From positions 248,001 through 312,000 of the forward strand of contig JABTUQ010000003.1 of NCBI GenBank assembly GCA_015075225.1: a DNA stretch of 64,000 nt, read 5' to 3'. Source of the stretch: Burkholderiales bacterium. GTDB taxonomy: Bacteria; Pseudomonadota; Gammaproteobacteria; Burkholderiales; Nitrosomonadaceae. Numbering within the stretch: position 1 is the stretch's first letter; each line of letters begins with the position of its first letter. The position numbers were made by a program, and so were the translations under genes. The notes below the pieces were generated by a model. The model searched no databases. It was given only the letters and a program-made list of their open reading frames with translations, and had not been told where the DNA came from. This document shows, piece after piece, positions 14,860 through 59,881 of the stretch.

Positions 14860-16383
14860 CAGCCTGTCGGACTTGATTTTTGTTTGAACGATACAAAGTG
14901 ATATTTTGCTGAAAAAAAGTGTCAGAAAGGTCATTTTTGACGGTTTTTCCCTTGTTTTTTGCTCAATTTCCCATTTGAAGGCGCAATGAGGCCATGCGTT
15001 TCAAATTCCATGCCAGGCAAACCAGGGTCCATTCTCCCTTGACCTTACCCAGGCCACGTAGTGAAAATTGCCGGAATCCCATCACGGATTTGATGATGCC
15101 AAACACGGGTTCGACGGTTTATTTGCGTAGTGCGTACAGTTTGCGCCCTGCCTGGCTTTTCAGTTTGTGTGCCATGCGTTGTGCCGGGCTGGCGTTGTCC
15201 GGCAAGGCAGGCGGTTCGGTAAAACGTTCAAACGGGCCGGGGTGGTGTGATTCGTGTCCGACTGCCATCAGTGGTTCAATGCCGTGTGCTTCACAGGTTG
15301 CCGCATTGGCTGCGCTGTAAAAGCCGTTGTCGGTCAGTAAATGTTCGATCTTCCCCAGTGCGGCGGGTAATTGTGTCAGCTGATTGAGCATCGGTTTGAC
15401 CTGTTCCCGATCGTTGCAAGCTGGTGTGACTGCCGGTGCAACGATTAGCATGCTGTTTGTATCAACGGCCGCCTGGGCATTGTAAGCCTGTTCAAATCCT
15501 CCACCGGAGGTGGGCATGATGCGCGATTCCTCGTCTGTCAGGTTGATCTGGTCTTTGCCTGCCGGTCCGGCTGCAGGCGGTGCGGGTGGTTTGCCACCCG
15601 GTTTTTTGCCACTGGTCCTGGCTTTTTCTTCCCGCCGTACCAGTTTGTCCTGATAGTCAGCCAGCTCCCGTGCATAGCGTTCTTTGCGCGCACTTCAATC
15701 TTTGCCCGGGCTTGTGCCAGGGCGGCAAGACGCTCCTCCCGCCGCGCAATTTCTTCCGGCAGCTCCATGCTATCCGGCACAGCACTCTGATCCGCCTGTT
15801 CTGCCTGCATCAGCAATTGCTGCACTTCCTGGCGCAGTTGTGGCTCCAGCTTGTCAATGTGCCCGTAAGACAGCGCGCTGTGGCGCGAGGCATTGGCGTG
15901 TATTTTGCTGCCATCAGACTGATTGTTCCCAGCGAGCAGCTGCATCTCGCATGCAACCTGCAATACCTGCACAAACAGTTCGGAAAATTCATTCAAAAAC
16001 GCCGACGGAAGGTCGCCAGCGTGTCATGGTCAGGATGCTGGTTGGCCGCAATAAAACGAAAGGCCAGCGAATCGTAAGTGGCGCTCAATCTTGCGGCTGG
16101 AAAACACCGGTTGCATAACCGTAAACCAGCAGCGCCAGCAGCATATTGGGATGATAGGCTGCACTGCCACGTCCGGCATAGTCTCGTTCAAGCTGCGTTG
16201 TGGAAAGATTTTCCACCACTTCAACAATAAAACGCGCCAGATGATTCTCCGGCAGCCATTCATCTACAGAGGGCGGCAGTAAATAGCCCGTACCACGATC
16301 TACCGGACGAAAGCGACTCATATCAATATCCCGCAAACAGAAAAAAACATATTATCCATTAATCCGTAAAGCCCGACAGGCTG
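14860..16383 (-). mobile_element. IS1182-family element, copy 2 (1524 bp)
   Basis: Ends CAGCCTGTCGGACTT and AAGCCCGACAGGCTG face inward and CTAG is duplicated at 14856-14859 and 16384-16387, the same target as copy 1. It lies in the same orientation, 6.4 kb away, and splits the epimerase gene. Confidence 0.88.
14963..16321 (-). pseudogene. IS1182-family transposase, frameshifted
   Basis: Read with a few shifts the protein starts [20 protein letters not shown] at 16321 and ends RMALLRLQMGN at 14963, about 455 residues as expected for the family. Long in-frame pieces survive: 16085-16321, 15538-15996 and 15119-15517, the last with GGFEQAYNAQAAVDTN and LLTDNGFYSAANAA. Breaks are at about 16105, 15990, 15690, 15530 and 15120. 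Less damaged than copy 1 but still not a continuous gene. Confidence 0.82.
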
Positions 16384-38005: not shown

Positions 38006-38080
38006 CGGGGTGTAGCGTAGCCTGGTAGCGCGCCTGGTTTGGGACCAGGATGTCGGGAGTTCAAATCTCTCACCCGACCA
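38006..38080 (+). tRNA. tRNA-Pro (TGG), one base short in the acceptor stem
   Basis: Anticodon loop TTTGGGA between CCTGG and CCAGG stems, a T loop TTCAAAT and an encoded CCA are present. The 3' acceptor strand CACCCG should be CACCCCG to pair with CGGGGTG, so one C is missing. Confidence 0.8.
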
Positions 38081-38120
38081 ATTTACGTGTATTTGATGAG
38101 CCAAAGCCGGTTTGATGGCA

Positions 38121-38190
38121 GTGCCGTAGCTCAGCCGGATGGGCACCAGCCTTCTAGCTGGGGTTACGGTTCATTCCTGTCAGGCACGCC
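38121..38190 (+). tRNA. tRNA-Arg (TCT), several bases short
   Basis: Clear similarity to a bacterial Arg tRNA: GTAGCTCAGCCGGAT in the D arm, ACCAGCCTTCTAGCTGG around the anticodon TCT, CCTGTC and GGCACGCC at the end. Bases are missing in the acceptor stem, D arm, anticodon loop and T arm, each where a doublet or triplet is expected. As written it would not fold properly. Confidence 0.6.
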
Positions 38191-38236
38191 GGGTCTGATC
38201 CTGGTTTACAAGATCAACTGGTCGTTCAGATCCATG

Positions 38237-38310
38237 GTGGCTGTAGCTCAGCTGGTAGAGTCCGGATTGTGATTCCGGTTGTCGTGGGTTCGAGTCCCAT
38301 CAACACCCCA
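38237..38310 (+). tRNA. tRNA-His (GTG), two bases short
   Basis: GTGGCTGTAGCTCAGCTGGT, anticodon loop TTGTGAT with GTG, and the T arm GTGGGTTCGAGTCCCA are clear and CCCA is encoded. One C is missing before the anticodon stem and one C in the 3' acceptor strand (CAACACC where CAGCCACC is expected). Confidence 0.75.
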
Positions 38311-38423: not shown

Positions 38424-38630
38424 CTAGGGAACCTCTGAAAAACTATCTGTGTTGTCATTTCTGCGTTAAAAATCGGCTCAAAATGCTCATTTATTACGGA
38501 TAAACTCCGTTTTTTACCCGGCGCCAGCGCCTCACCCTACGGGCTAGCCTTACAGCTGTTCGCTGCGTTTTACTTGTGTCTCCTATTTTTGCCTTGAATT
38601 GACTGCCTCGCTGACGTTTTGAAGCTTCCG
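38424..38630. repeat. 148-bp repeat family, copy C with an internal insert
   Basis: The outer parts match copies A and B, but about 60-70 bases (38515-38585) with an inverted GC-rich string (CACCCTACGGGCTAG) replace the middle of the right half. The right end is also degraded (GTTTTGAAGCTTCC). Confidence 0.7.
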
Positions 38631-57377: not shown

Positions 57378-58418
<1,041 letters not shown>

Positions 58419-58422
58419 ACGT

Positions 58423-59073
58423 ATGTCGAATTCTTATTATCCACATCCGATCATTGCCCGCGAAGGATGGCCTTTTATTGCTGGCATATTTGCTGTGGCT
58501 CTGCTGGTGCAGCTTATGGCTGGCTGGTTATGGGCATCGCCATTCTGGCTGATAGCCCTATTCATCTTGCAATTCTTCCGGGATCCTCCAAGGGTTATCC
58601 CTGATCTTGCCGGGGTTGTGCTCGCTCCGGCAGATGGGAGAATCGTTGCTGTGGATAAAGTTCAGGATCCTTATCTGATGCGCGAAGCACTGAAAGTCAG
58701 TGTTTTTATGAATGTTTTCAACGTGCATTCAAATCGTAGCCCGGTGGATGGAGAGATACGTAATCAATGGTATTTTCCTGGGAATTTCCTGAATGCAAGC
58801 TTGTCCAAGGCTTCCCTTGAGAATGAACGTAACGCGCTATGGATTCAAACCGATAAAGGGCAGAATGTGACCTGTGTACAGATCGCCGGTCTTGTTGCAA
58901 AGCGGATTGTTTGTCATGTTCACCCGGGGGAGCACCTTGCCTGCGGGCAGCGTTTTGGTTTTATCCGTTTTGGTTCACGCGTGGACGTGTAACTACCTGT
59001 GGGAACCAAGATCAATGTCAGACTAGGTGATAAGGTGCGTGCAACCGAGACCGTTCTGGCCGAATTTAGCTGA
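58423..59073 (+). pseudogene. psd: Phosphatidylserine decarboxylase with a premature stop after the processing site
   Basis: The 216-codon frame has two N-terminal membrane segments (residues 17-50), [49 protein letters not shown] and the Gly184-Ser185 pair (RFGSRVDV) where these proenzymes are expected to cut themselves, turning Ser into the catalytic pyruvoyl group. At codon 190 a TAA (58990-58992) replaces an expected aromatic residue; the same frame then runs on for 26 clean codons, LPVGTKINVRLGDKV to TVLAEFS, up to TGA at 59071. As read, the alpha chain would be only five residues long. psd is the last step of phosphatidylethanolamine synthesis after pssA, which follows. Confidence 0.85.
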
Positions 59074-59101: not shown

Positions 59102-59881
59102 ATGCGGGAATCTGACTCAGAGCAATTATCTGTTACCAATCCGCGCTGGAGGAGGCGGGGTATCTATCTTTTGCCCAACCTCTTTACGACTGCAGCGCTG
59201 TTTGCTGGTTTCTATGCAATTGTGCAGGCAATGAATGGCCATTATGAGCATTCCGTCATCGCTATTTTTGTGGCTATGGTGTTTGATGGCCTGGATGGCC
59301 GGGTAGCTCGCCTGACACATACACAAAGTGAATTCGGTGCTGAATATGATAGCTTGTCCGATATGGTTTCGTTTGGAGCTGCTCCCGCGTTGATTGTGTA
59401 TGAATGGGCATTAAGGGATCTGGGGAAGCTGGGCTGGATTGCTGCATTTATCTATTGCGCTTGTGCTGCGTTGCGCCTCGCCCGGTTCAATGTAACCGTC
59501 GAAGTTATTGACAAACGGTTTTTTCAGGGTTTGCCAAGTCCGGCTGCGGCTGCATTGATTGCTGGAATGATCTGGGTAGTGTTGGATTTTCAGGTGGTGC
59601 CTGCCGATATCTCGTGGTTGGCGTGGATCATGACGCTGTTTGCCGGGTTGACCATGGTAACCAATATCCCTTACTACAGCGGTAAGGAAATCAATTTGCA
59701 CAAAAGAGTTTCATTTTTTGTGATTGTGGTGCTTCTTCTGTTCGTTTTTGTCCTGATTCCAAGCCATCCTCCACTGGTGTTATTCGGAATGTTCCTGGCT
59801 TATGCATTATCCGGGTACGGTATGAAGATCTGGCGGCTGTACAAGAACAGAAAACGTAATGAAATTCGTAAAGAAGCTTGA
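59102..59881 (+). CDS. pssA: Phosphatidylserine synthase
   Basis: The 259-residue integral membrane enzyme joins CDP-diacylglycerol and serine. The CDP-alcohol transferase signature is complete: DGLDGRVARLTHTQSEFGAE then YDSLSD. Seven or eight hydrophobic segments follow. ATG 59102 is chosen because the MRESDSEQLSVTNPRWRRRG start is usual for relatives; upstream codons overlap the end of psd. Intact, in operon with psd. Confidence 0.93.
   Translation: MRESDSEQLSVTNPRWRRRGIYLLPNLFTTAALFAGFYAIVQAMNGHYEHSVIAIFVAMVFDGLDGRVARLTHTQSEFGAEYDSLSDMVSFGAAPALIVYEWALRDLGKLGWIAAFIYCACAALRLARFNVTVEVIDKRFFQGLPSPAAAALIAGMIWVVLDFQVVPADISWLAWIMTLFAGLTMVTNIPYYSGKEINLHKRVSFFVIVVLLLFVFVLIPSHPPLVLFGMFLAYALSGYGMKIWRLYKNRKRNEIRKEA

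Follow-up and report, generated by a model that had tools for sequence, protein, structure and literature searches.

An in-frame TAA in the only psd gene found in a draft Nitrosomonas-like genome is probably a consensus error

Our analyses point to a consensus error, arisen in sequencing or assembly, as the probable source of the in-frame TAA (58990-58992) in the sole psd gene found in a draft Nitrosomonas-like genome, and we infer that the DNA of the organism itself lacks the stop. This explanation is favoured because the contig that carries psd has other lesions in genes on which a living cell would depend. On this view Psd would be produced in the organism as a normal, full-length protein. 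Its proenzyme would undergo self-cleavage at the Gly184-Ser185 pair, giving a beta chain and a pyruvoyl-bearing alpha chain of 32 residues, and the enzyme is predicted to turn the phosphatidylserine supplied by PssA into phosphatidylethanolamine. If true, the stop would mean either a Nitrosomonas living without its sole known phosphatidylethanolamine enzyme or a new assembly route for a pyruvoyl enzyme; most likely, it is not a real feature of the organism. The main use of the case at present is as a warning on single-base oddities in an assembly: since damaged tRNA genes for which no intact copy was found lie in the same 64-kb window (the whole stretch of DNA analysed here), reads should be checked before such oddities are interpreted biologically.

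Results

The psd frame and its internal stop

Positions 58423-59073 of the forward strand form a frame that reads M...FGSRVDV*LPVGTKINVRLGDKVRATETVLAEFS*. An earlier note on this DNA had described a TAA at codon 190, five codons after the expected cleavage pair Gly184-Ser185 and followed by a tail of 26 open codons; translation of the frame bears this out, and all of its coordinates and residue numbers are correct. Codons 1-189 occupy 58423-58989 and reach five codons beyond the Gly-Ser pair, the TAA lies at 58990-58992, and the remainder of the alpha chain (58993-59073) consists of 26 sense codons and a TGA. Codons 1-189 score well above the curated cut-offs of the Psd family profiles, with 138 bits for PF02666 (cut-off 22) and 332 bits for NCBIfam NF003680 (cut-off 262), the latter alignment ending at profile position 188 of 217. 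The NF003680 score, and alignments with psd from five relatives that continue past the TAA, show that the frame is not open merely by chance.

The gene lies immediately 3' of an intact ilvC-like gene (57402-58418, +), and the genes on this side are presumably ilvB-, ilvH- and ilvC-like. Downstream, pssA (59102-59881, +), coding for the CDP-diacylglycerol--serine O-phosphatidyltransferase that makes the substrate of Psd, is intact, its product being identical to the homologue P0124 at 242 of 243 residues; a further gene on the 3' side is one that we take to be leuA-like. TAA is the terminal codon in four of the seven neighbouring genes checked.

Under the standard code, cleavage would leave an alpha chain of five residues, whereas chains of the family have about 32-34 (32 in P0001, the nearest homologue among the matches listed), a length reached in the window only if the TAA is unreal. 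The alpha chain of E. coli Psd comprises 34 residues, 29 of them in contact with the beta chain, and its first strand lies between two beta-chain sheets; a form limited to residues 1-287 is as active as the full-length form, according to the parts of the structural report available to us (PMC7952604). By analogy between this 34-residue chain and the short form, a Psd with a five-residue alpha chain is very unlikely to function and would probably be dead. The window gene resembles short-form bacterial Psd (PF02666; NF003680) in codons 1-189, in the 26 tail codons, in the Gly-Ser cleavage pair and in the adjoining pssA, and differs from it in ending, as printed, five codons past the cleavage serine. 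Sequence searches found no relatives of Psd among solved structures, and the structure predicted for P0001 was of low confidence (mean pLDDT 63.5), its Foldseek matches not being Psd. No report of a stop within a bacterial psd was found in the literature, judged by titles.

psd in relatives and homologues

A search with the Pfam model recovered psd in all 61 genomes compared, namely the source genome and 60 relatives, with an internal stop in the source genome only. Within the genus psd was present in 85 of 85 genomes, in a search whose query ran to codon 189 and which consequently bears on the presence of the gene and not on codon 190. Additional matches inside the genus were pieces only (G004, G014, G018), while two strong matches occurred in four of the 61 genomes (G039, G048, G050, G057), all from other families of the order. 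Near relatives were represented by N. eutropha Nm57 as the nearest named genome (86%), in a collection from which very near records may be missing, and by Nitrosomonas/N. europaea as the best protein matches (91-92%, among those listed).

Three protein searches, including one with PssA that contributed 120 sequences, yielded 310 proteins, of which 188 were retained because they contain the FGS motif and are 151-239 residues long; being the best-scoring matches listed, they represent a sample of near relatives. Among these matches residue 190 is Tyr in 188 of 188, and the pair Gly184 and Ser185 is likewise invariant (188/188). P0001 is full length and differs from the window Psd solely at residues 41, 190, 193 and 201. 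At the last two positions the window has Val (GTG, 58999-59001) and Leu (59023-59025); P0001 and 162 of the 188 listed homologues have Leu at residue 193, where Val occurs once, and P0001 and 185 of the 188 have Ile at residue 201, where Leu occurs twice. Another protein, P0005, coded on a contig of 2,133 bases, is identical over residues 1-172 and ends one residue later, so it says nothing of codon 190.

Two further positions set this lineage apart. Asn148 (58864-58866) and Cys174 (58942-58944) are common to the window Psd and P0001 only, the other 187 of the 188 homologues listed having Asp and Arg. The two residues are a lineage trait that predates the stop, and they could hint, weakly, at a relaxed constraint in the lineage before the stop arose.

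Selection and divergence

For codons 1-189, dN/dS was 0.04-0.07 in six of the seven pairs formed with relatives and saturated in the seventh, the pairs covering 7 of the 11 aligned relative loci; as the dS values are high, these ratios describe the long branch, whereas the period after the divergence from P0001 lies outside their reach. They indicate strong long-term purifying selection on psd. The tail beyond the stop is open and coding-like, and together with the low dN/dS this rules out an old pseudogene, a very recent loss being compatible with both. Gross over-divergence of the tail DNA found no support either: in comparison with the relative locus L153, differences number 17 in the 81 bases of the tail and 129 in the 567 bases that precede the stop, and with L148 they number 24 and 104, respectively.

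At the protein level, changes relative to P0001 fall in 3 of the 27 codons from 190 on and in 1 of the 189 before (Fisher p = 0.006, for a split picked after seeing the data). Across the compared genes, the window differs at 74 of 3,588 codons on which at least four relatives agree, psd contributing 5 of 146 such codons before the stop and 3 of 19 at and after it. Codon 190 of psd is the sole stop among the differences listed, which comprise those in psd and those in the densest clusters, part of the 74. Elsewhere in the compared genes, three changes fall within 36 bp in three further clusters, and for this reason the cluster of three at psd codons 190-201 is unexceptional by itself.

Other lesions in the assembly

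A cluster of tRNA-Pro, tRNA-Arg(TCT) and tRNA-His genes (38006-38310), 20.7 kb upstream of the psd stop, lacks 16-22 bp in comparison with six relatives and shows small, scattered deletions. At this locus ARAGORN calls three tRNAs in every one of these relatives but tRNA-Pro alone in the window. The tRNA-Pro(TGG) gene (38006-38079, +) is still called in spite of being two bases shorter than in the relatives, while tRNA-Arg(TCT) (38124-38190, +), with scattered small deletions, and tRNA-His(GTG) (38237-38310, +) are damaged and uncalled. When the whole genome was searched with the genes of a relative, the tRNA-His query matched the damaged gene at 95% and two different tRNAs at 79% and 74%, the tRNA-Arg query found the damaged copy alone, and neither revealed an intact tRNA-His or tRNA-Arg(TCT) elsewhere. 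A cell devoid of tRNA-His or tRNA-Arg(TCT) is not expected to live.

A gene at positions 186048-187291 of the same contig (C13; locus L280), which we take to be icd, carries a frameshift near codon 39 and is open in six of six relatives. It is the only strong match in the genome; a second match is partial, at 35%, and is present in the relatives too. An assembly in which the sole tRNA-His, tRNA-Arg(TCT) and icd are broken appears, from these sequences, to hold consensus errors or mixed-strain artefacts.

As a control, one script was run on the source contig and on stretches of five relatives, each compared with the genes of the others. On the source contig 34 of 37 distinct loci were intact and three were broken: psd, icd and a presumed UDP-glucose dehydrogenase-like gene (C13:97617-98706), whose frame breaks at 98365-98399 in comparison with a single relative. 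In the five relatives the script called 2 of 172 distinct loci broken, a modest difference founded on few events (3/37 vs 2/172, Fisher p = 0.04). As the stretches taken from the relatives share few genes with the contig, the control covers 42,076 of 397,106 bases.

Decoding capacity

The source genome gave 37 tRNA matches, of which ARAGORN types 36, the 37th being the damaged tRNA-His. No suppressor tRNA, or other tRNA able to read UAA, was found among the 36 typed in this incomplete draft. tRNA-Phe and tRNA-Arg(ACG) are also missing among the typed tRNAs of this genome (G000), owing either to the incompleteness of the draft or to more damaged genes.

Discussion

The earlier note had left four options for the stop, and these fared differently: that one base is wrong is now the best supported, given the lesions of the tRNA cluster and icd on the same contig; a second psd and readthrough both lost ground; and a recent loss of the enzyme keeps some probability. 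With a contig broken at other genes and a near-identical full-length protein in P0001, the psd stop is most simply explained as one more error. Several observations count against an error: the tRNA and icd lesions are deletions and that of psd is a substitution, so a shared cause is not required; 34 of the 37 loci compared are intact, and the codon differences listed contain no further stop; the cluster at codons 190-201 has counterparts in other genes; and residues 148 and 174 are altered in both the window and P0001. Consensus errors that fragment genes are known from long-read bacterial assemblies (PMC12007338, PMC8812927) and, in the portions of these reports available to us, appear as frameshifts and early stops where the genes of relatives are unbroken, as in the window; these reports concern long-read assemblies, which may not be the method behind the source genome, and the psd lesion is a substitution and not a homopolymer-length error.

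Against a consensus error, the alternative with the strongest claim, unlikely as we consider it, is a genuine and very recent nonsense mutation in the strain or a subpopulation, by which Psd would be inactivated and phosphatidylserine would build up, leaving a cell that either subsists on other lipids or is dying out. The TAA does stand in the consensus, the changes from P0001 gather in the tail (on the post hoc split given above), and this lineage has unusual residues at 148 and 174; yet the gene is kept throughout the genus, the adjoining pssA is intact, P0001 is full length, and the other lesions of the contig suggest a faulty consensus. That the stop is real and read through, yielding enough full-length proenzyme, would agree with the open, coding-like tail and the retention of pssA, but we regard it as very improbable, since no suppressor was found among the typed tRNAs, none of the 60 relatives has a stop within psd, let alone at the same place, and TAA ends most of the neighbouring genes checked.

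No more credible is a true loss of Psd with another enzyme supplying phosphatidylethanolamine, or a second psd among the sequences missing from the assembly. At 95.5% completeness the draft leaves room for such a copy, and the four genomes with two strong psd matches give a precedent; in the source genome, however, PF02666 matched the single interrupted psd and nothing else within that 95.5%, and the extra matches of the genus are only pieces. It is equally far-fetched, in our estimation, that a real stop is followed by a new start of translation at codon 193, a GTG two codons past the TAA that none of the 11 aligned relative loci has at this codon. Such a restart would give a three-piece decarboxylase, composed of the beta chain, a pyruvoyl peptide of five residues and an independent fragment of 24, which we judge just as implausible.

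Further interrupted frames on the contig

A coding-potential scan of the contig for in-frame stops like that of psd gave 23 candidates including psd itself. Ten of the other 22 were inspected; seven look like ordinary gene ends or non-genes, and three look broken, namely an hsdR-like gene, an outer-membrane protein gene and a transposase. Family matches back the hsdR-like gene and the transposase from both pieces, and the outer-membrane protein weakly, from one piece.

The Type I restriction subunit R-like gene (C13:1183-2985; L213) is interrupted by a TGA in frame, close to the end of the contig. Its two pieces each match HsdR-type domains, and its break may be natural decay. In the outer-membrane protein gene (C13:201385-202293; L223:1385-2293) the in-frame TAA lies at 201631, where both relatives aligned at the site have a sense codon; its downstream part has a stop-free match in seven of eight relatives and none in the eighth. 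Within the window, a DDE transposase (14966-15694, -) is interrupted by a TAA at 15119-15121, both pieces matching transposase families, which is ordinary for an insertion sequence. A short segment beyond the tRNA cluster (38424-38620) matches dozens of places in two relatives (G063 and G020) and represents a dispersed repeat family.
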